Part shown: positions 8,916 to 47,933 of the stretch, piece by piece
Layout: each line of letters begins with the position of its first letter
Position numbering within the stretch: position 1 is the stretch's first letter
IMG/VR virus record: IMGVR_UViG_3300037245_001167
Coordinates: 1-64,000 of that record
DNA: 64,000 nt
Strand: one strand, 5' to 3'
Origin: a virus
Made by a program: the position numbers and the translations under genes
Notes under the pieces: model-generated
The model's input: the letters and a program-made list of their open reading frames with translations, nothing else
Told to the model about the DNA's origin: nothing
Databases searched by the model: none

Positions 8916-10730
8916 ATGGAAAAAGTAAAGATCAATCTTGGTGCCGGCGACGTTCCTATTGACGGGTATGTAAACATCGACCGCAAAACGGGACAAGAGG
9001 CGTATCCATTGGCTTACGAGGATAATTCAGTGGACGAGATACGCGCTTCGCACATCCTTGAACATTTCGGGATGAATGAAGTGCCTAAAGTGATAAAGAA
9101 CTGGGCAGACAAATTGAAACCGGGGGGGCTGCTTAAAATTGCAGTTCCTGATTTTGATAAGATTATCGAACAGTATAAGGCCGGCGATCCCAAGACAGCA
9201 GGATATGTTTGTGGCGGGCAAATTGACGACAACGATTACCACAAAAGCATATTCGACCGAAGATCACTAACTACGCATCTTGAAAAGGCGTGTCTATCTG
9301 ACATCAAGCATTGGGACAGCGAGATAGTCGATTGTGCAAGCCTGCCGGTCAGCCTTAATTTGCAAGCGACCAAGACAAGTGGAAGCCCTGAACTAAGAGA
9401 AATGCTTGATGGCTTTATGGCAAGGAAGAAAAATGTATATTCGCAGTATGGCGAAGATGGCATTATTGAAGCCATGTTTGAAAAAGTTGAGATAAAAAAT
9501 AAATGGTGTTTGGAAGTTGGTGCCGCTGATGGGATTTTGTTTTCAAATACTCGGCGATTGGTGGAGCAGGGCTGGAATGCCATTCTCGTCGAATCAGAGA
9601 AGCTTGCTTACGACAGGCTTGTTGAAAATTGCAAGGATTATCCGAATGCTCATCCTGTATTTGCAGAGATTGGGCAGGATTGCACATTAGAAAGCATTCT
9701 TGAGAAGTTTAATGCTCCCAAGGATATTGACTTGGTAGTTATTGATATAGACGGCCAAGATTACCACGTTGTTAATGCGATGATGAATTACAAGCCGAGG
9801 ATATTGGTCGTTGAGTATAAGCCAGAAATCGATACTGAATTTATTCCTACTCTTGGCGGCCAAGGACAGGCAGGTGCAGCGGCAATGGAACGGCTGGGCA
9901 GCTCTAAGGGGTATCGGGCTATGTTAATAACAGACTGTAATCTTATTATGATGCACAGTTCGTTATTCAAAATAGTTGATGAATCAAAAATTCCAGCTAT
10001 GCCGAGGCCGGAAACAGTAAGTACAAAAATAGGGGCAATTATGTCATGTCCCCGTCTTGGATTTACCAATAATTTAATGTGTCATACTAAAGTTTTCGCG
10101 CCGATGGGAATTGATTTTAATGTGGGATATGGCGTGTTCTGGGCACAGATACTTACAAGGATGATAGAGGAGCAAATAGCAAAAGGTATGGACTTGATTG
10201 CCATTTTGGATTATGATAGCTATTATCTAAAAGAGCATTTCTTGGCATTATGTCAGATTATGTTGAGTCATCCGGAAGCCGATGCCATTTTGCCGGTACA
10301 AATTAAGCGGGAAAATGACAGGGTACTGGCTGGCGTAGATGACCCGGTTAAGGCCAACTGTGAATATGAAGCCGATACTGAATTAATTGAAATCGATACC
10401 GGGCATTTCGGCTTAACTTTATTCAGAGCATCGTCATTCGCCAAACTCAAAAAGCCGTGGTTCCTTGCCGTACCGGATAAAAAGGGTGAATGGGGCGATG
10501 GCAAGCTGGATGATGACATTTATTTCTGGAAGAACTTGAGAAAGAGCGGGCTTAAAGCATTTCTTACGCCGCAGGTTTTGATTGGTCACATGCAACTCAT
10601 GGTGACGTGGCCCGGCACTTTCGAGAAAGGGTCAAAACCAATTCATCAGTATATAAATACTTGCACCGAAGAAGGCATTCCAGATTGTTGCAGGGTTTCT
10701 AAAAATTATGTTCCAAAACAAATAAAATAA
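8916..10730 (+). CDS. Methyltransferase-FkbM-glycosyltransferase fusion
   Basis: A 604-residue three-domain enzyme. Residues 1-150: class I SAM methyltransferase with INLGAGDVPIDGYVNID (motif I), an HILEHF segment and LKPGGLLKIAVPD. Residues 170-300: FkbM-like sugar O-methyltransferase (QYGEDGIIE, CLEVGAADG, LVVIDIDGQD). Residues 370-600: GT-A-like glycosyltransferase with DYDS at 432-435 as the likely metal-binding DxD and a late LDDDIYFWKNLRKSG segment. It probably builds and methylates a short glycan. It is the first gene of the glycan island, in the cytoplasm, and its ribosome site may be controlled by the RNA fold upstream. Substrates cannot be told from sequence. Confidence 0.75.
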   Translation: MEKVKINLGAGDVPIDGYVNIDRKTGQEAYPLAYEDNSVDEIRASHILEHFGMNEVPKVIKNWADKLKPGGLLKIAVPDFDKIIEQYKAGDPKTAGYVCGGQIDDNDYHKSIFDRRSLTTHLEKACLSDIKHWDSEIVDCASLPVSLNLQATKTSGSPELREMLDGFMARKKNVYSQYGEDGIIEAMFEKVEIKNKWCLEVGAADGILFSNTRRLVEQGWNAILVESEKLAYDRLVENCKDYPNAHPVFAEIGQDCTLESILEKFNAPKDIDLVVIDIDGQDYHVVNAMMNYKPRILVVEYKPEIDTEFIPTLGGQGQAGAAAMERLGSSKGYRAMLITDCNLIMMHSSLFKIVDESKIPAMPRPETVSTKIGAIMSCPRLGFTNNLMCHTKVFAPMGIDFNVGYGVFWAQILTRMIEEQIAKGMDLIAILDYDSYYLKEHFLALCQIMLSHPEADAILPVQIKRENDRVLAGVDDPVKANCEYEADTELIEIDTGHFGLTLFRASSFAKLKKPWFLAVPDKKGEWGDGKLDDDIYFWKNLRKSGLKAFLTPQVLIGHMQLMVTWPGTFEKGSKPIHQYINTCTEEGIPDCCRVSKNYVPKQIK

Positions 10731-37433: not shown

Positions 37434-37889
37434 ATGTTGTGGACAAATAGAGGAAAGTTTTTGATGTTCGACTGGGTATTTCGCGCCGAGGCGATGCCGA
37501 CCAATATGTATGTGGTTTTATGCACTGACGCTGATACGCCAACGGTAGATATAAACACGCTCGGCGAGCTGACTGAAATTGCAGATGGTAACGGATACAC
37601 GGAGGGCGGTTATGAACTAACGCCGGGGGCTGGTGACTTCGACGTGATAACCGAAGACGATACACTCGATAAAGCAATCGTGCAAATTAAAGACCTCGTA
37701 TGGACTGCGGTTGCCGGGCCGATACCCAGTGCAGGCGACGGTGCGAGGTATGCTATACTGACCGACGACAACGGTGTAGTGGCTAACAGGCAGGTGATAG
37801 CCGCGTGGGATTTAGTGACTGCAAGAGAATGTACGGATACGCATACGATTACATTGCAAGATTGTGAATTACAAGCAATAGAACCATAA
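37434..37889 (+). CDS. Tail/virion protein
   Basis: A 151-residue beta-rich protein with AAAAGGAG before its ATG. WTAVAGPIPSAGDGARYAIL and VVANRQVIAAWDL are common in small phage tail-fibre-like proteins. Last virion-type gene before the small membrane protein. Confidence 0.6.
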   Translation: MLWTNRGKFLMFDWVFRAEAMPTNMYVVLCTDADTPTVDINTLGELTEIADGNGYTEGGYELTPGAGDFDVITEDDTLDKAIVQIKDLVWTAVAGPIPSAGDGARYAILTDDNGVVANRQVIAAWDLVTARECTDTHTITLQDCELQAIEP

Positions 37890-38588: not shown

Positions 38589-39596
38589 ATGAATGTAGTT
38601 ATGATAATACCGACAGGTATCGGATGTAAGATCGGCGGTCACGCGGGCGATGCGACGCCGGCGGCCAAACTGCTCGGGGCCTGCTGTGATAAACTGATTC
38701 TGCACCCGAACGTCGTTAATGCTTCCGACATTAACGAGATGCCGCTGAATGCCCTGTATGTCGAGGGCAGTATTCTTGATAGACTTCTTGAAGGCACAAT
38801 CCAGTTAAGAGAAGTCAGGCAGAACAGAATATTATTGGCGGTCAATACCCCTGTACGAAATGAGACAATCAATGCAGCTTCGGCCACAAGATCATCTATG
38901 GGAGCGGATATAAGGATTATAGAGTTAGAAACACCATTAAGAATGGTGGGCAAGTTCAAGGATGGTAAGGCAACTGGAGATGTGTATGGCTGGGAGGAGC
39001 TTGTTGAGCAAGTCTGGAAGTATGAATTTGACGCACTTGCTATATCATCGGTTATAGAAGTAGCTGATGATGTCTGTTTGGAATATTTCAAAGAAGGTGG
39101 AGTGAATCCGTGGGGCGGTGTTGAGGCAAAGGCATCGAAACTAATAGCATCGAAACTCGATATGCCGGTAGCTCATGCGCCTGTCGAAGGATCGAGCAAC
39201 GAAACGCAAAATGAAATATTTTATAGTGTAGTCAATCCAGCTATGGCGGCTGAGGCCGTAAGTAATTGTTATCTTCACTGCGTTCTCAAAGGATTGCATC
39301 GTGCACCCCGGATCGGAAAGGGTTTGTCCGTCGATGATATTGATTGTCTGGTCACGCCTGTAGGCTGCGTAAGTAGGCCACACCACGCCTGTATAGAAGC
39401 GGGGATACCGATTATAGCGGTCAAAGAGAACACGACGGTTCTGAACGATCCGATACCGGACGAGTTCATATTTGTAGAAAACTATATCGAAGCGGCGGGG
39501 CTTCTGATGGTTATGAGGGCTGGAATATCGGTCGAATCGGTAAGGCGGCCTTTGGAGAAAACAGAAATAATAAGAACTAAATTAGATAAGGAGTAA
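38589..39596 (+). CDS. DUF3326 family protein
   Basis: A 335-residue protein matching what I remember of the DUF3326 family (MIIPTGIGCKIGGHAGDATP, HPNVVNASDINEMPLNALYV, EGSILDRLLEG). Function unknown; the pattern of a Gly-rich start and Asn/Asp-rich site suggests an enzyme. ATG 38589 has GAAAGG at ideal spacing; an in-frame ATG at 38574 is too close to that site. It directly follows the AdoMet-decarboxylase-like gene and is the last gene before the terminator at 39623. Confidence 0.65.
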   Translation: MNVVMIIPTGIGCKIGGHAGDATPAAKLLGACCDKLILHPNVVNASDINEMPLNALYVEGSILDRLLEGTIQLREVRQNRILLAVNTPVRNETINAASATRSSMGADIRIIELETPLRMVGKFKDGKATGDVYGWEELVEQVWKYEFDALAISSVIEVADDVCLEYFKEGGVNPWGGVEAKASKLIASKLDMPVAHAPVEGSSNETQNEIFYSVVNPAMAAEAVSNCYLHCVLKGLHRAPRIGKGLSVDDIDCLVTPVGCVSRPHHACIEAGIPIIAVKENTTVLNDPIPDEFIFVENYIEAAGLLMVMRAGISVESVRRPLEKTEIIRTKLDKE

Positions 39597-41623: not shown

Positions 41624-41652
41624 TTGACAATAGTCGATAATAGTTATATAAT
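41624..41652 (+). promoter_or_regulatory. Perfect-consensus sigma70 promoter
   Basis: TTGACA at 41624-41629, exactly 17 bases, TATAAT at 41647-41652, in an AT-rich setting. This is the best possible promoter and should drive strong early expression of the genes at 41880 on. Start expected near 41659. Confidence 0.9.
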
Positions 41653-41658
41653 GTTTAA

Positions 41659-41879
41659 TAGAATTGAAAAGTAAATAATATGAAGCTAATAAACAAGAGC
41701 TTGCAAGCGGGGCACTGAGAGCCAAAAGCCTAACCCGCAAAAGTCTGGAAAACGCTGCTGACGATGGCCGGGCGGAAAACGAAGGCAAGGGGATCGAAAG
41801 ACGCGACACCGGGCAGGCAACACTGTCCGGACTCATGTTTTTTGACAATCAATACCAACTTCTTTTAAGGGGTTAGAAA
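41659..41879 (+). ncRNA. Long folded leader with short leader ORF
   Basis: About 220 bases of transcribed leader between the strong promoter and the first full gene. It includes a 12-codon ORF (MKLINKSLQAGH, 41680-41718) with only a weak ribosome site, a stem AAGCT/AGCTT, a stem GCGGG (41707-41711) with CCCGC (41734-41738), and the conserved hairpin at 41809. Without covariation this is a suggestion of a regulatory leader, not a known class. Confidence 0.5.
41806..41843 (+). promoter_or_regulatory. Conserved hairpin element H, copy 1
   Basis: CCGGGCAG (41809-41816) with CTGTCCGG (41823-41830), then ACTCATG and six T. The flanks GACACCGGGCAG and CGGACTCATGTTTTTTGA recur at 42570-42611. It may be a terminator/attenuator or an anti-termination target such as a put-like site. 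Confidence 0.6.
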
Positions 41880-42092
41880 ATGGAAACTACACAAAAAGAA
41901 ATCGAAGCAGGTATCAAAACTGTATTGGCAGTAGCCGAAGCAATCAAGAGTTTGGGTTCGGTTCCATCGGGTCATCTTTACGCAAGAGTCATGGGATTCT
42001 TGTCGCTGAGTCAGTACAATCAAATCATCGGCATACTCAAAAAACAAGGGCTGATTGAGGAATCATACCACGAACTTAAATGGATAGCATAA
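41880..42092 (+). CDS. Small winged-helix-like DNA-binding protein
   Basis: A 70-residue protein. SLGSVPSGHLYARVMGFLSL with SQYNQIIGILKKQGLIEE is a winged-helix-like pattern seen in small phage early proteins. AAGGGG ribosome site. First gene after the perfect promoter, so likely an early regulator. Confidence 0.6.
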   Translation: METTQKEIEAGIKTVLAVAEAIKSLGSVPSGHLYARVMGFLSLSQYNQIIGILKKQGLIEESYHELKWIA

Positions 42093-42165
42093 GTCGAAAC
42101 GCCCTCCGGGGCGTCTGCGGGATTGGCAACCCGTACTGAGGAGACACGCCAAACAATCGAATCGA
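42091..42165 (+). other. Structured intergenic RNA
   Basis: Between two early genes: begins with AAGTCGAAACGCCCT (shared exactly with 43167-43181), folds ACGCCC-TCC-GGGGCGT, then CGGG/CCCG, and GGCGT...ACGCC. Repeated 5' end with differing 3' parts suggests a family of intergenic RNA elements, of unknown role. Confidence 0.4.
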
Positions 42166-42177
42166 AAGGGGTTAAAA

Positions 42178-42561
42178 ATGGACAAGAAAGAAACAATCAA
42201 TCAAATACGCAAAGCACTCAAAAGAAGGTCAGGAAAAAGTTGGAGCGTTACGGGCGGAAGTGGCACGGCATGGGGATGGCTTAACATCACGGCACCACCC
42301 AAACACTGCACAGGCCATGCAGTACAAATACAGGGAAGCATGGGCATGAATCCAGAAGATTTTGAGTACAAGGACACTGGCGAGCTGAATGGCAATATGA
42401 CGCCGACAGATCAAACCGAACTTGGCAAGTTGCTGGGGCTTGATAAACCAGTACATTTCCAGGGCGAAAGCATCCCGGCTGGCCATGACTACTGGCAGGA
42501 ATATATCGACAGAGCCGAGGGACGGACGCCGAGCGTTGTCGGAAAACAGTATTGGGATTAA
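42178..42561 (+). CDS. Conserved hypothetical (RSGKSWSVTGG family)
   Basis: A 127-residue protein with LKRRSGKSWSVTGGSGTAWG, a Gly/Ser motif followed by WLNITAPP, and IPAGHDYWQEYIDRAEGRTP near the end. I have seen this pattern in conserved proteins of phages and plasmids without a known function. AAAGGGG ribosome site. Confidence 0.7.
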   Translation: MDKKETINQIRKALKRRSGKSWSVTGGSGTAWGWLNITAPPKHCTGHAVQIQGSMGMNPEDFEYKDTGELNGNMTPTDQTELGKLLGLDKPVHFQGESIPAGHDYWQEYIDRAEGRTPSVVGKQYWD

Positions 42562-42569
42562 AAGACAAG

Positions 42570-42611
42570 ACACCGGGCAGAAAAACATCGCTGCTCGGAC
42601 TCATGTTTTTT
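42570..42611 (+). promoter_or_regulatory. Conserved hairpin element H, copy 2
   Basis: CCGGGCAG (42573-42580) with CTGCTCGG (42591-42598), then ACTCATG and six T, as at 41806. Compared with copy 1 the paired bases at two positions swap their G-U and G-C pairs, so the stem is conserved while sequence and loop vary. Confidence 0.6.
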
Positions 42612-42641
42612 GAAACTATAACTTTTTGAAAGGGGTTAAAA

Positions 42642-42926
42642 ATGACACGCGAAAATATCAGACAAAAGATTTACGATTATATGTTGCACAAAGGAGCTGA
42701 TCGGTTTTGGGCGAATGCAGCACTGAAGCATATCATGCTAAACTTTGCCGGCAACACTTTCTGGCTCGCAGATATCAGAGATCCCAAAGTAATCATCGGA
42801 GCCTATGGGATGATTAACAAGTTCACTGTAAAATGTTCGATCAATACCGAATCGCAAAAAGTGGATGGCAAGCTGATTTATACTTTCGGTCACGGCCATA
42901 AGGTACGGGTTACGGAAACGAAATAA
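42642..42926 (+). CDS. Small hypothetical early protein
   Basis: A 94-residue protein. The first 45 residues are helical with an FAGNTFW motif; the rest is beta-rich. AAAGGGG ribosome site. No family recognised. Confidence 0.6.
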   Translation: MTRENIRQKIYDYMLHKGADRFWANAALKHIMLNFAGNTFWLADIRDPKVIIGAYGMINKFTVKCSINTESQKVDGKLIYTFGHGHKVRVTETK

Positions 42927-42959
42927 AGTCGAAAACAATCAAATTGAAAGGGCAAGAAA

Positions 42960-43163
42960 ATGACTAAAAAAGAATTACTCAAAGCAATTAAATCTTGCAA
43001 TCAAGTCTTTGCTTGTACCAGACTAACCGATAATGATATGTTTGACCTTCAAGTCACGAAAGTTGATTTGATTTGGAAGGTCAATCAATGCGATACCGAA
43101 ACATGGACTGAAGATCACTTCAATGCTTGGATTGATAAGAATAACAATCTTCGTCTTGGATAA
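42960..43163 (+). CDS. Small hypothetical early protein
   Basis: A 67-residue protein with a GAAAGGG ribosome site. The C-terminal WTEDHFNAWIDKNNNL is conserved-looking. Followed by the tRNA-like element and a terminator. Confidence 0.6.
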   Translation: MTKKELLKAIKSCNQVFACTRLTDNDMFDLQVTKVDLIWKVNQCDTETWTEDHFNAWIDKNNNLRLG

Positions 43164-43176
43164 CGAAAGTCGAAAC

Positions 43177-43215
43177 GCCCTGCACGGCACGCAGGTTCGA
43201 CTCCGGCACAGGGCC
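43177..43215 (+). other. tRNA-like minihelix (acceptor + T arm)
   Basis: GCCCTGC pairs with ACAGGGC (6 of 7) as in a tRNA acceptor stem, and GCAGG-TTCGACT-CCGGC forms a T-arm with the invariant TTCGANY loop and G53-C61 pair. D and anticodon arms are missing (7 bases join the two), so this is not a working tRNA. It could be a relic or a tRNA mimic. Confidence 0.45.
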
Positions 43216-43233
43216 TTGCGATGATATATTAAC

Positions 43234-43269
43234 GATAGGGGCGGCATAATAGTCGCCTCTATCCTTTTT
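43234..43269 (+). terminator. Intrinsic terminator after early block
   Basis: A 10-bp stem (GATAGGGGCG/CGCCTCTATC, one G-U) followed by CTTTTT. It ends the transcript from the promoter at 41624, or partly. Confidence 0.8.
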
Positions 43270-43311
43270 AACGCCTCAGACGGGGCGTGGGACTTGAAAA
43301 GATGGTATATT

Positions 43312-43524
43312 ATGAAAACAAAAAAGAAAAAACTCAAGGGTAGAAAACGCCGAGCATTTGACCTTGAAGCGTTTAACCAAGTGAAATTTCGTCAAGAGGT
43401 GATGTGGAAAGAAGCTAAGTTGCGGCAGGCATTCCCTGACCGACAGAAACGGAAAGAGTATATAGCTGCACTGATCAACGGGCTTGAGACTGAGCCTATT
43501 TTAGAGCAATGGCCGGACATATAG
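43312..43524 (+). CDS. Small basic protein
   Basis: A 70-residue protein: Lys/Arg-rich start (MKTKKKKLKGRKRRAFDLEA) then a helical part. ATG 43312 is chosen over an in-frame TTG at 43294. Possibly nucleic-acid-binding by charge. Preceded by 17 bases identical, in inverted orientation, to 62907-62923. Confidence 0.5.
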   Translation: MKTKKKKLKGRKRRAFDLEAFNQVKFRQEVMWKEAKLRQAFPDRQKRKEYIAALINGLETEPILEQWPDI

Positions 43525-43583
43525 TCGGGTGCAACCGAGATCGTCGCTCAGGCGGCGGCATAGAGAATCGAAAGGAGTTAGAA

Positions 43584-43751
43584 ATGAAACGAAGCCTGTC
43601 GTATTGGAAGGCCAGGAAGATTGACATCCGCAATTGTATTGCCGCTGCTGACAAGAGGTCGTCTTACTGGGCCGATTTATGGAATGCCTACCGCTTTGCC
43701 AGCCGCAAAGTCGAGCAGGTGGAACGAAAGATATTAATCAGACATATTTGA
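43584..43751 (+). CDS. Small hypothetical protein
   Basis: A 55-residue basic protein (SYWKARKIDIRNCIAAADK). ATG 43584 with AAAGGAG is much better than an upstream in-frame start. Unknown function. Confidence 0.55.
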   Translation: MKRSLSYWKARKIDIRNCIAAADKRSSYWADLWNAYRFASRKVEQVERKILIRHI

Positions 43752-43762
43752 AAGGAAGTAAA

Positions 43763-44002
43763 ATGATCGAACCATATATTCTGCCATGCATAGATTTCAG
43801 AAACCGGCTCATCGCCGAGATGAAACGGCAGGGCATCAGCATCCCAAAAATGAGCAGGCTGGTGGCCTGCAATCAGCAGACTCTATACAACTATTTTGCT
43901 GGTCGAACGTCGATTGGCTCCAATCTTCTGGCCGCAATCCTGAGCCAGCTCGGTGGGCAGTTATCGTTTGAAAACCGGACAAACAGAAGTAGTCCGAAAT
44001 AA
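43763..44002 (+). CDS. XRE-type helix-turn-helix regulator
   Basis: A 79-residue protein. ISIPKMSRLVACNQQTLYNY and SNLLAAILSQLG (about residues 25-65) are a Cro/C1-type helix-turn-helix. It should bind an operator; a tandem 13-bp repeat directly downstream (44067-44092) is a good candidate. The GAAAGGAAG ribosome site is strong. Confidence 0.8.
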   Translation: MIEPYILPCIDFRNRLIAEMKRQGISIPKMSRLVACNQQTLYNYFAGRTSIGSNLLAAILSQLGGQLSFENRTNRSSPK

Positions 44003-44027
44003 CTAAGTGTCCGATCAGATTTTTTTG

Positions 44028-44056
44028 TTGACAATTATTTCAAGATGTATTACTTT
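44028..44056 (+). promoter_or_regulatory. Probable promoter
   Basis: Perfect -35 TTGACA (44028-44033), 17-base spacer, weak -10 TACTTT (44051-44056). Start expected near 44063, just before the repeats at 44067. The poor -10 suggests need for activation or a weak promoter. Confidence 0.5.
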
Positions 44057-44066
44057 GTACTTTTCT

Positions 44067-44092
44067 TATGAGGTTTTAGTATGAGGTTTTAG
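44067..44092 (+). repeat. Tandem 13-bp operator-like repeat
   Basis: TATGAGGTTTTAG twice in a row (44067-44079, 44080-44092), overlapping the start of transcription from 44028. Direct repeats at this spot are typical repressor sites; the HTH protein encoded just upstream is the best partner. Confidence 0.65.
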
Positions 44093-44133
44093 GAAGACTT
44101 TGAAAACCTGAACTTTTTTGAAAGGGCAAAATT

Positions 44134-44175
44134 ATGGTTGTGCACAAATCATGCTTTGTTAAATTAATAAGATAG
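44134..44175 (+). CDS. Possible leader peptide
   Basis: A 13-codon ORF (MVVHKSCFVKLIR) with a good GAAAGGG ribosome site in a short transcript between the promoter at 44028 and the terminator at 44213. Could be a regulatory leader peptide. Confidence 0.35.
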   Translation: MVVHKSCFVKLIR

Positions 44176-44212
44176 TCAGCGCCGGGAGATCATCTTCCAA
44201 ATACAGCTTACT

Positions 44213-44249
44213 AAGCCGCCTCTGAGTTTTGGGGGCGGCTTTCTCTTTT
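44213..44249 (+). terminator. Intrinsic terminator
   Basis: AAGCCGCC (44213-44220) pairs with GGCGGCTT (44234-44241); the tract TTTCTCTTTT follows. Together with the promoter at 44028 it defines a transcript of about 190 bases that may act as an sRNA or be an attenuated leader. Confidence 0.85.
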
Positions 44250-44261
44250 GCTAAAAAACGG

Positions 44262-44280
44262 ACAAACGACATCGTGACAT
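44262..44280 (+). repeat. 19-bp direct repeat, copy 2
   Basis: Identical to 41501-41519. Copy 2 lies in noncoding DNA just after a terminator. Confidence 0.85.
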
Positions 44281-44375
44281 CCGCACGCTCAGATAAAAAA
44301 TAAGTTTTTCGTGTAATCTATCCCCTTGCCACACAAAGACTTACGAGGCGTTGCTCCAGAATTATTTCTTTGCTC

Positions 44376-44404
44376 TTGATTTTTCGCCAAATTTTGTTTA
44401 AGAT
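44376..44404 (+). promoter_or_regulatory. Probable promoter
   Basis: TTGATT (44376-44381), 17 bases, TAAGAT (44399-44404), the same -10 as the promoter at 39668. Start near 44411. It precedes the interleaved attenuator at 44443. Confidence 0.5.
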
Positions 44405-44440
44405 ATTTCCGTAAGTTAATACTCTTTTAGGATTAGCAGT

Positions 44441-44566
44441 ATGAGAAGTCGGCAATCCACAATTCGGAACGAAATTTACCAACAATATCCCGCCCTCAGC
44501 CCATCCGAAAGCCCGACTTCTCACTTGGTCTTTTACGAGGGCGGGTTTATTTTTAAGAAAGGATAA
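44441..44566 (+). CDS. Leader-type small ORF over the attenuator
   Basis: A 41-codon frame (begins MRSRQSTIRNEIYQQYP, ends FYEGGFIFKKG) that spans the whole attenuator and stops 5 bases before the next gene. The ribosome site is weak (TAGGATT). Translating it would disrupt the RNA stems, as in translation-coupled attenuators. Confidence 0.35.
   Translation: MRSRQSTIRNEIYQQYPALSPSESPTSHLVFYEGGFIFKKG
44443..44550 (+). promoter_or_regulatory. Interleaved attenuator / pseudoknot
   Basis: Arm A GAGAAGTCGG (44443-44452), arm B CCCGCCCTC (44489-44497), arm A' CCGACTTCTC (44513-44522), arm B' GAGGGCGGG (44537-44545) then TTTATTTTT. B-B' is a 9-bp terminator stem; A-A' is a 10-bp perfect stem that crosses it. 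The order A B A' B' allows a pseudoknot or a switch between the two. Confidence 0.65.
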
Positions 44567-44571
44567 GGATT

Positions 44572-45371: not shown

Positions 45372-45598
45372 GCAACTTTATAGCTAAAATGCAAATACTG
45401 ATAAGAAAGAACAAAACTCTCCAAGCCACAAACGCCACCCTCATCAAGCAGAGGGATGATTTGAAGGAAGCGCTGGAAACAATAAAAAAAGGAGAAGGTG
45501 CGTTTTCACGAGATAAATTAACACACGCTGAAAATGTCATAAAATCAATACAAGAGATAGCCAAAGCCGCCCTCGCCCAATGCAAGGAGAAACCATGA
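45368..45598 (+). CDS. Coiled-coil protein
   Basis: A 76-residue coiled coil. Its second half (LKEALETIKKGEGAFSRDKL then TKAENVI-like) is clearly related to that of the gene at 49506 (LKEALREIEKAEGAYSQDDL), so this is a reused module in the window. Coupled on both sides by ATGA. Confidence 0.6.
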   Translation: MSNFIAKMQILIRKNKTLQATNATLIKQRDDLKEALETIKKGEGAFSRDKLTHAENVIKSIQEIAKAALAQCKEKP

Positions 45599-46002
45599 GT
45601 AGAGATATAAAGTATCGATTATGGCATATAGCAGACAAGAAATATTACATTGTATATTGCCTTCAATTCTCTGATGAATTTGACGAGCCTCTTAATTACG
45701 AAGCTGCGCAGATACGCCGTAACGACGAGTGGGAATGGATTGAGAAAGACACTTATATTCTTGAGCAATTTACCGGACGCAAAGACAAGAACGGAAATCC
45801 AATCTATGAAGGGGATGTGGTTAAAAAAGATGGAAAAATTTACGTTATCCGATATAGCCAGCATTGTTTTGATTTAGCGTGTAGCACTAATGATTGGCCA
45901 AAACGACAAGATGGATATAGTTATTATAGCACATCATGGGATGATATTGAGATAATAGGAAATATTCACGAGAGCAAGGAGTTGATTGATGGGAACGATT
46001 AG
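45595..46002 (+). CDS. YopX family protein
   Basis: A 135-residue protein. IKYRLWHIADKKYY at the start, LEQFTGRKDKNGNPIYEGDVV in the middle and EIIGNIHES at the end define the YopX family, small phage proteins of unknown role. ATG 45595 overlaps the upstream stop. Paralogous to the gene at 46333, with an HNH gene in between. Confidence 0.88.
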   Translation: MSRDIKYRLWHIADKKYYIVYCLQFSDEFDEPLNYEAAQIRRNDEWEWIEKDTYILEQFTGRKDKNGNPIYEGDVVKKDGKIYVIRYSQHCFDLACSTNDWPKRQDGYSYYSTSWDDIEIIGNIHESKELIDGND

Positions 46003-46336
46003 CCCTCAATGTAGAGCAGCCAGCATTAAAGCCCGTAAAGGTAAGCATTCCGGTAACTGGAAAGGTGGTCGGATAAAAGATAAGGTGGGGTATATTCTTT
46101 TATACAAACCCGAACACCCAAATGCGGTATCTGGCAGAACGCACGGATATGTTTACGAACACAGGTTTATTATGTCTGAATATTTGGGCAGACCGTTGAC
46201 AAGCAAAGAATTTGTTCACCACAAAAACGGAGTTAAAGACGATAACCGTTTGGAGAATCTTGAATTGCTTTTACACAATGTTCACCGGGGCAAGGTTGAA
46301 TGCCCTTATTGCCGGAAGGAGTTTACGATACGATGA
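45989..46336 (+). CDS. HNH endonuclease (homing type)
   Basis: A 115-residue nuclease. FVHHKNGVKDDNRLENLELL (HHN core at about residues 76-95) is the HNH motif; CPYCRKEF near the end adds a zinc pair. AAGGAG is placed ideally for ATG 45989. It overlaps both YopX genes by a few bases, so it was inserted without breaking either. Confidence 0.85.
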   Translation: MGTISPQCRAASIKARKGKHSGNWKGGRIKDKVGYILLYKPEHPNAVSGRTHGYVYEHRFIMSEYLGRPLTSKEFVHHKNGVKDDNRLENLELLLHNVHRGKVECPYCRKEFTIR

Positions 46337-46713
46337 TTAAGAAATTCAGAGTTTGGGATATTGAGCGAGAAGAGTACATCAAGAACACCGGCAATCCATA
46401 TATTTTCCCTTTTAATGGGATAACGGCAATGAAATGCGCTGGTAGCAGTTGTGGGAGTATTAACGGGGAAAAAGACTATTCAGAGTATTACATACTTGAG
46501 CAGTGGACAGGTTTGCTCGATAAGCAGGGCAAGGATATATACGAGGGGGATATGATTAAATTTTTATCTCCATTGCAAAGACAAGACTTGTCACCGGCGA
46601 CTGTTGAATGGAGCGATACAGGTGGATATTGGGTACTGAAAGGTAAATTACCATTACTTTTGCATCGTGCTATAAATCCTGAAATCATCGGAAACGTCCA
46701 CACAAAAGAATAG
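46333..46713 (+). CDS. YopX family protein, paralogue
   Basis: A 126-residue YopX relative: MIKKFRVWDIEREEYI, LEQWTGLLDKQGKDIYEGDMI and EIIGNVHTKE. ATG 46333 overlaps the HNH stop. Followed by 535 noncoding bases. Confidence 0.87.
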   Translation: MIKKFRVWDIEREEYIKNTGNPYIFPFNGITAMKCAGSSCGSINGEKDYSEYYILEQWTGLLDKQGKDIYEGDMIKFLSPLQRQDLSPATVEWSDTGGYWVLKGKLPLLLHRAINPEIIGNVHTKE

Positions 46714-46734
46714 CTCTATATAAAAGTAAATACG

Positions 46735-46824
46735 GAATTTTGGCGGCGGCAATGTGTAAGGACAAAATATACTATCGGTAGGGAAAGTCCTCGAAAGTCC
46801 ATCCGAGCATTGCCCGCCAAATTC
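46735..46824 (+). ncRNA. Structured RNA element A
   Basis: GAATTTTGGCGG...GCAATG (46735-46754) pairs with CATTGCCCGCCAAATTC (46808-46824) in a 17-bp stem with two small bulges, closing a 53-base region with an internal GGAC/GTCC stem. First of four such elements in a row. Confidence 0.6.
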
Positions 46825-46830
46825 ATAAAT

Positions 46831-46913
46831 GTCCGGTGGCAGGCCGTCGTAGGCGGTTGGCAAGATCAGAGTGAAGCTCGTTATGGCTCTGTTCGTCGGG
46901 AACCCCACCGGAC
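46831..46913 (+). ncRNA. Structured RNA element B
   Basis: Perfect 9-bp closing stem GTCCGGTGG/CCACCGGAC around a region with an inner CAGAG (46867-46871) and CTCTG (46887-46891) stem. Starts 7 bases after element A. Confidence 0.6.
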
Positions 46914-46922
46914 AGCACTTAT

Positions 46923-46995
46923 GCAGGGGGACACCCTCTTACATTCTCCAAACGGAAAGTACGGCTAAATACATCCGCTTCGTTCCCCTGCTTTT
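46923..46995 (+). ncRNA. Structured RNA element C, terminator-like end
   Basis: Perfect stem GCAGGGG (46923-46929)/CCCCTGC (46985-46991) followed by TTTT. With its 55-base interior it looks like an RNA that ends in its own closing stem. Confidence 0.55.
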
Positions 46996-47005
46996 ATAAG
47001 TTAAT

Positions 47006-47175
47006 AAGAAGAATGGATCAGACTCAGTGGGTGCGACCTTTATCCCGGAAGTGGAAAAGGTGCTACGTTCAAGACGAATCGAGGGAAAGGCTCTGAGGAT
47101 TATGACGTCTTACTCAGAGCAATCCAGTAAACATGCTCCAGAGTAAATAGACGAGCCTTACGAGCCATTCTTCTT
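47006..47175 (+). ncRNA. Structured RNA element D
   Basis: An 11-bp perfect closing stem (AAGAAGAATGG, 47006-47016; CCATTCTTCTT, 47165-47175) around about 150 bases with inner stems ACCTTT/AAAGGT (47036-47041, 47056-47061) and GCTCTGAG/CTCAGAGC (47090-47097, 47113-47120). The largest of the four and multibranched. Confidence 0.6.
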
Positions 47176-47184
47176 GAACATTAT

Positions 47185-47219
47185 CGGGGTGTTTTGGCAC
47201 GGATGCTACCCCCGTTTTT
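47185..47219 (+). terminator. Terminator after RNA array
   Basis: CGGGGT (47185-47190) with ACCCCCG (47208-47214, one bulge), then TTTTT. It ends the noncoding array 30 bases before the next gene. Confidence 0.75.
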
Positions 47220-47248
47220 ATGAAACGTATATTTGAAAGGTAAATGAA

Positions 47249-47488
47249 ATGCCAATGGATTTTCCAGATTTAGAGAGCTTGAAACAAGCGGCGGAAGTAC
47301 ATGGATTCAGAAAAGTCAGAGAAAATGAGCCAGAAGAAGCTTATCGCAATGCTTTGGCGAATCACGTTTCTTCAAGGGATTTTATTGAATCTGAGGAAAT
47401 AAGGAACAAGGTAGGGTGGGACAAATTTAGCAAAAAGCAGGACAGGGCAATGCTCGGGCGTAAAGGACTTAGATTTCCCCTTCCATAA
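47249..47488 (+). CDS. Small hypothetical protein
   Basis: A 79-residue charged helical protein (AEVHGFRKVRENEPEEAY). AAAGG ribosome site. No family recognised. Confidence 0.6.
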   Translation: MPMDFPDLESLKQAAEVHGFRKVRENEPEEAYRNALANHVSSRDFIESEEIRNKVGWDKFSKKQDRAMLGRKGLRFPLP

Positions 47489-47573
47489 CGAGAGCCAACG
47501 CCGGAAGGCGGTTGAAAAGTGAATATTGAAAGTTCCAATGAAGCCGAAGGATGGCTTTTATAGGAGAAAGAAA

Positions 47574-47750: not shown

Positions 47751-47756
47751 ACACAA

Positions 47757-47919
47757 ACGTCTCACCGGGACGACACCCAGGGAATGTAGGGTGAATGATG
47801 GCTGGCTTTCCGCATGAACTTGTGCGAAAGGCCATGATGTAAGAATATAACACAAACAAGTTGATTAACGTAAGGTTTACCTTTATAGCACGATGCAGGA
47901 TGCCTGGTGAGGCGTTTTT
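47757..47919 (+). ncRNA. Four-way-junction leader RNA
   Basis: A 13-bp closing stem (47757-47769 with 47903-47915, two G-U) encloses three hairpins: CACCC/GGGTG (47774-47793), an 11-bp stem with one mismatch (47804-47814/47823-47833) and AAGGT/ACCTT (47872-47883). The closing stem runs straight into five T, and the AAGGAG of the next gene begins at 47920. This design (junction, terminal stem, U-tract, ribosome site) resembles a riboswitch or ncRNA gene with its own terminator. Confidence 0.6.
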
Positions 47920-47933
47920 AAGGAGCAATGAAA

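Follow-up and report, generated by a model that had tools for sequence, protein, structure and literature searches.

Based on four successive closing stems that exceed both shuffled sequences and the rest of the phage, the lack of any gene, and a fifth closed element next door, we propose, with roughly even confidence, that a gap in a tailed phage's early operon encodes several clustered, untranslated RNAs, each folding on its own and acting in trans, the host probably being a planctomycete. Counting against this proposal are the absence of a significant boxA and the modest folding energy in this array, the lack of a homolog, an antisense strand that folds equally well, and the two folds available to one of the elements. 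The window, i.e. the whole stretch of DNA analysed, comprises bases 1-64000 of a 71,100-base IMG/VR virus record. The virus is a tailed phage; its genes include those for terminase, portal, capsid, tape measure and tail. The host of this uncultured virus is probably a Phycisphaerae-like planctomycete bacterium. Only one genome in GTDB, a Phycisphaerae metagenome-assembled genome (MAG), has a close terminase relative (72% identical, on a contig that is possibly misbinned); terminases with 34-46% identity are found in 12 further genomes among 397 Phycisphaerae, and the best isolate phages reach a terminase identity of only about 33-35%.

The initial annotation had described positions 46735-47219 as four adjacent elements with closing stems, followed by a terminator and devoid of any convincing gene. 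The four consecutive elements (E1-E4; see the table) are indeed present, with closing helices of 10-17 bp, and no ORF of at least 60 aa with a start codon occurs on the plus strand of the gap, each frame of which has 5-9 stops and unremarkable open frames. The interior of E2 is predicted to adopt a multibranched, cloverleaf-like fold, and in E4 positions 47067-47093 can pair in competition with 47153-47179 (27 nt, 78% complementary). E1 and E3 have a common motif (71% over 24 nt) that is suggestive only, and no tandem repeats were found among E1-E4. As for the terminator, a hairpin with a U5 tail is present and is plausibly one, whereas the terminator scan made no call, on account of its 14-nt loop. 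The array, for which no recognised promoter was found, lies between co-oriented genes; its plus strand is inferred from these neighbours and the U-run. No family could be assigned by family search to the 79-aa ORF downstream. The next large gap (47751-47927) holds the further closed element, the closure of which was matched by 1 of 200 shuffles.

Table. Features of the noncoding gap in the window and of the noncoding stretches in the related phage G005; z, folding-energy z-score.
Feature	Genome	Coordinates	Strand	Remarks
Noncoding gap with array, 535 nt	Window	46714..47248	+	between YopX-like ORF 46300-46713 and 79-aa ORF 47249-47488
E1	Window	46735..46824	+	17-bp closing helix with 1-nt and 2-nt bulges (GAATTT.GGCGG..GCAATG / CATTGC CCGCC AAATTC); z -2.8 to -3.2
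E2	Window	46830..46914	+	perfect 10-bp closing helix TGTCCGGTGG/CCACCGGACA; z -2.3
E3	Window	46923..46991	+	10-bp closing helix GCAGGGGGAC/GTTCCCCTGC, one G-U; z -3.3
Weak boxA-like sequence	Window	46987..47008	+	TGCTTTTATAAGTTAATAAG, between E3 and E4; 6.3 bits, top 0.024% of plus-strand positions
E4	Window	47005..47176	+	closing helix of 12 contiguous bp TAAGAAGAATGG/CCATTCTTCTTG
Terminator-like hairpin	Window	47185..47219	+	CGGGG..CCCCG with U5 tail; fold -13.2 kcal/mol, z -1.3
Further closed element	Window	47755..47917	+	15-bp closing helix AAACGTCTCACCGGG/CCTGGTGAGGCGTTT; z -2.7
Long array, 811 nt	G005	42030-42840		MFE z -5.5; stem score 106, reached by 0/200 shuffles
Second stretch, 501 nt	G005	38800-39300		z -3.8
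Three-way junction, 82 nt	G005	43161-43265		z -4.9 to -5.3
F1	G005	about 42040-42165		paralogous element
F2	G005	38806-38946		paralogous element
F3	G005	39082-39262		paralogous element

The closing stems are real. A score defined as the sum of disjoint closing stems, and devised after the finding had been seen, amounts to 63 for the reported 485 nt (46735-47219), whereas none of 254 windows of the same phage scored above 55 and none of 300 dinucleotide shuffles above 53; when repeated on the whole gap, its value was reached by none of 200 shuffles. The minimum free energy (MFE) of folding is mildly unusual, with z at about -2 (-2.4 for the 485 nt and -1.7 for the 535 nt), single elements ranging from -2.3 to -3.3, while control 90-nt windows of the phage have a mean z of -0.3 with a standard deviation of 1.6. 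The antisense strand of the array folds about equally well.

In Rfam scans nothing in the window reached the gathering score, and the permissive matches, to eukaryotic snoRNAs and the like, are attributable to chance; neither ARAGORN nor Rfam found a tRNA or tmRNA in the window, and in the scanned relatives tRNAs were the only families at gathering score. Searches for direct DNA relatives of the array returned none in phages, a single 28-nt chance match in plasmids, and four matches in the 397 Phycisphaerae genomes (E 0.003-0.005), about as many as expected by chance. No sequence relative of the array was found in related viral loci totalling about 1 Mb, and searches with the neighbouring proteins found no close relative of the region. 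Of two IMG/VR pattern scans with the E1/E3 motifs, one was empty and the other gave one match, inside an open frame. An apparent gap in an exonuclease relative (L115) proved false, being occupied by reverse-strand genes. Two other loci (L051 and L053) have weak candidate structures, whose closure was equalled in 12 and 10, respectively, of 200 shuffles. Distant Phycisphaerae prophages have only the terminase end in common and contain no boxA match.

What is new here is that the same early region of a related phage also has noncoding arrays, and stronger ones. This relative (G005), a 62,113-base virus record reached via terminase relatives, is syntenic with the window by its terminase, portal, capsid and exonuclease, with identities of 54% in the large terminase, 59% in the portal, 54% in the capsid, 66% in a 604-aa protein, 37% in the tape measure and 51% in the RecE-like exonuclease. 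Its arrays, located in the early region 3-7 kb ahead of the exonuclease common to both phages, are much stronger than that of the window. Three paralogous elements, F1, F2 and F3, all keep both arms of a closing helix (GCCAG..(GAG)AGACGG / CCGTCTC..TCTGGC), and at the end of the long array a strong hairpin with U5 stands right in front of the following start codon, the same layout as in the window. The arrays of the two phages do not align and have no detectable sequence in common. Their likeness is one of operon neighbourhood, of architecture and of structure statistics, and does not extend to demonstrable homology or common origin. The arrays of G005 are an independent occurrence in about the same place, and the view of the window's elements as an array of closed structured noncoding units, put forward in the initial annotation, gains support from this stronger counterpart.

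G005 also has two tRNAs, one of which (51.7 bits, with an expanded middle) lies in the same stretch as the arrays. At 43069-43159 (L040:3069-3159) there is a 91-nt tRNA-Lys-like gene whose anticodon/variable region is expanded and whose host-like part consists of the T-arm and acceptor end; matches of the G005 arrays in host genomes are mostly tRNA 3' ends. In G005 an identical 14-mer, TTGAAAAGTGAATA, stands before both this stretch's tRNA and the closed RNA that follows; the window has a single copy of it, at 47512.

The spacers of G005 look like boxA, an antitermination signal found in rRNA leaders. 16S genes were taken from the terminase-bearing Phycisphaerae MAG and its relatives, most of which have a boxA upstream (examples are GCTCTTTGAAAAGTGAACAGT, GTTCTTTGGCAAGTGAATAGT and GTTCTTTTACAAGTTAACAGT), and a profile built from 12 such sequences was scanned against both strands. 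The three best matches in G005, at 37605 (26.6 bits), 39063 (25.5 bits) and 42011 (24.3 bits), all exceed 19.1 bits, the highest score attained by any of 12 random genomes with matching dinucleotide composition. The site at 39063 abuts F3 and that at 42011 stands just before F1, so that two of the three directly precede arrays; the third is in the leader of a coding stretch. The other related loci, about 1 Mb in all, contain a single additional site of at least 18 bits. The profile scan found no significant boxA for the window array: a candidate between E3 and E4 looked convincing by eye but was not supported by the profile test, its score having, in a gap of 535 nt, a chance expectation of about one in eight. 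The best host-type boxA in the window's genome (18.6 bits) is on the minus strand at record position 65080 (L011), upstream of leftward ORFs, a position reminiscent of lambda nutL.

Untranslated phage RNA would, by analogy with rRNA, be a target for Rho. As two stretches of G005 are preceded by a boxA of the host rRNA type, we posit that their RNA is most likely synthesized by a Nus-modified, Rho-resistant polymerase; such a polymerase may also favour the closure of long-range helices, as in pre-rRNA. In the window, the operon transcript would extend past the YopX-like gene and across E1-E4, to stop for the most part at the terminator-like hairpin. The closing helices would delimit self-contained units, which host nucleases might cut back to stable species of some 70-170 nt, and the trimmed products would act in trans, perhaps by binding or titrating a host RNA-binding protein, the ribosome or a defence factor. 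We infer the transcription, trimming and stability of these RNAs, as well as boxA function and Nus dependence in G005, from sequence and predicted structure; by analogy, the window array, lacking a recognisable boxA, may work in the same way as those of G005.

Comparable arrangements are known. In rRNA operons, boxA recruits NusB/S10 and other Nus factors to yield a Rho-resistant polymerase, and a long leader-trailer helix bearing an RNase III site encloses the RNA (PMC10250234, PMC5725501). G005 is similar in having a host-type boxA directly before long closing helices around structured RNA, but the RNAs of both phages are not ribosomal by Rfam, and the window's boxA is not significant. Lambdoid nut sites likewise place boxA in a phage early operon, and the site of G005 at 37605 lies in an operon leader; the boxA of G005 differs in matching the host rRNA type and in that two of its three sites precede noncoding arrays. 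A partial literature search found no paper joining boxA with orphan phage ncRNA arrays.

The initial annotation had also been reminded of ROOL and GOLLD, while claiming membership in neither. The resemblance in kind holds, since both are, like the array, long, dense, ORF-less structured phage RNAs of unknown function (PMC12286853); membership is unsupported, as no covariance-model match to ROOL or GOLLD was obtained at gathering score and neither was listed at E up to 10. Moreover, the array is shorter, the whole gap measuring 535 nt against the more than 800 nt of many GOLLD members (PMC12286853), and consists of separately closed units. ROOL is characterised by pseudoknots and nanocage assembly, and its frequent nearness to tRNA islands has no counterpart in the window, which has no tRNA, though G005 has two. 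A further parallel is ICP1, a tRNA-less phage in which an ORF-less ncRNA of about 800 nt is the most abundant transcript (PMC7567579). That RNA is likewise an orphan, situated between genes of a tailed phage that lacks tRNAs, but it has been shown by RNA-seq and lies by lysis genes, whereas the window array is in the early operon and is predicted from sequence. A type III toxin-antitoxin RNA array was also considered and rejected, as there are no tandem near-identical repeats and the ORF downstream, in place of an endoribonuclease toxin gene, is without a family. The most likely identity of the array is that of clustered structured noncoding RNAs, close in kind to ROOL, GOLLD and the ICP1 ncRNA.

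Several other readings of the gap deserve consideration. That its stems are a cis-acting intercistronic structure, which insulates or regulates the operon without giving rise to separate RNAs, is in our estimate rather unlikely. Such a structure might protect mRNA ends, attenuate at 47185-47219 or control the 79-aa ORF starting at 47249, and it would accord with the location of the array between co-oriented genes without a recognised promoter, with the shorter structured leaders or terminators before other ORFs of the same operon, and with the hairpin and U-run that part the array from the next ORF in both phages. Yet four to six successive closed units over 0.5-0.9 kb far exceed the needs of a leader, and in G005 a tRNA is mixed into the array stretch. 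The self-closure of each element, together with the lack of an Rfam match and a reported fold that has no helix between elements except in alternatives, also makes it improbable that E1-E4 are domains of one large ornate RNA, some 480 nt long, possibly multimerising and in kind like ROOL/GOLLD, even if contiguous elements, short linkers and one terminator-like end fit such a molecule and the top transcript of ICP1 is a large ORF-less ncRNA (PMC7567579).

Decay or neutral sequence, with remnants of inverted-repeat mobile elements or lost genes and stems formed by chance, could account for the lack of homologs, the two competing folds of E4 and the modest energy, and an HNH endonuclease gene stands two genes upstream of the array. 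Against it, the density of stems in the array is the highest in the phage, intact stems of 10-17 bp would not survive decay, and G005 has stronger arrays in a similar position; we consider this explanation distinctly doubtful. That a protein-coding region was overlooked is scarcely credible: stop-free stretches do extend to about 85 codons on the plus strand and 75 on the minus strand of the gap, but the plus strand offers no start-codon ORF of the above size and every frame is repeatedly interrupted.

If the stems reflected decay or local mRNA structure, the case would be an ordinary one. Large orphan ncRNAs are recurrent in phages, with roles that are mostly unknown, and here arrays with no detectable sequence in common sit at similar points of their operons, those of the relative being preceded in two cases by antitermination signals of the host rRNA type. 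Should our preferred reading, a cluster of trans-acting RNAs, be true, the combination of boxA and a long closing helix would provide a handle to search for such RNAs without sequence homology, and the synthesis of array RNAs would become testable. More speculatively, and with low confidence, we suggest that phages of uncultured Planctomycetota have a fast-evolving class of multi-element ncRNAs, made by Nus-modified polymerase as an rRNA-like precursor with a borrowed host boxA and leader-trailer-like closing helices, and yielding abundant trans-acting products.

Some further features of the window merit mention. At 41624-41652, within a 358-nt gap, there is a textbook sigma-70-type promoter (TTGACA-17-TATAAT), followed by a structured leader, which apparently heads the early rightward operon. 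Other intergenic structures of the array's operon resemble terminators or leader hairpins. Two diverged terminator-like hairpins with a U-run (GACACCGGGCAG..CGGACTCATGTTTTTTGA), at 41790-41845 and 42554-42613, each stand before an ORF. After an ORF, at 43164-43215, a tRNA T-arm-like sequence (GCAGGTTCGACTCC) is found in a GCCCTG/CAGGGC hairpin, where ARAGORN calls no tRNA. The 569-nt gap at 44003-44571 contains an 82-nt element (44442-44523) with a perfect 11-bp closing helix (TGAGAAGTCGG/CCGACTTCTCA), possibly another RNA or a leader. The translation-start context TTGAAAGGGGTTAAAAATG and its variants recur before many early ORFs (41864-44136 and 47233). At 45580-46713 an HNH endonuclease ORF lies between two YopX-type ORFs (phrog_98), an arrangement that would fit the insertion of a homing endonuclease between gene duplicates. 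Finally, the 604-aa protein, better conserved between the window's phage and G005 than any other protein found, is encoded among the head genes (8916-10730) and weakly matches methyltransferase domains of two kinds.
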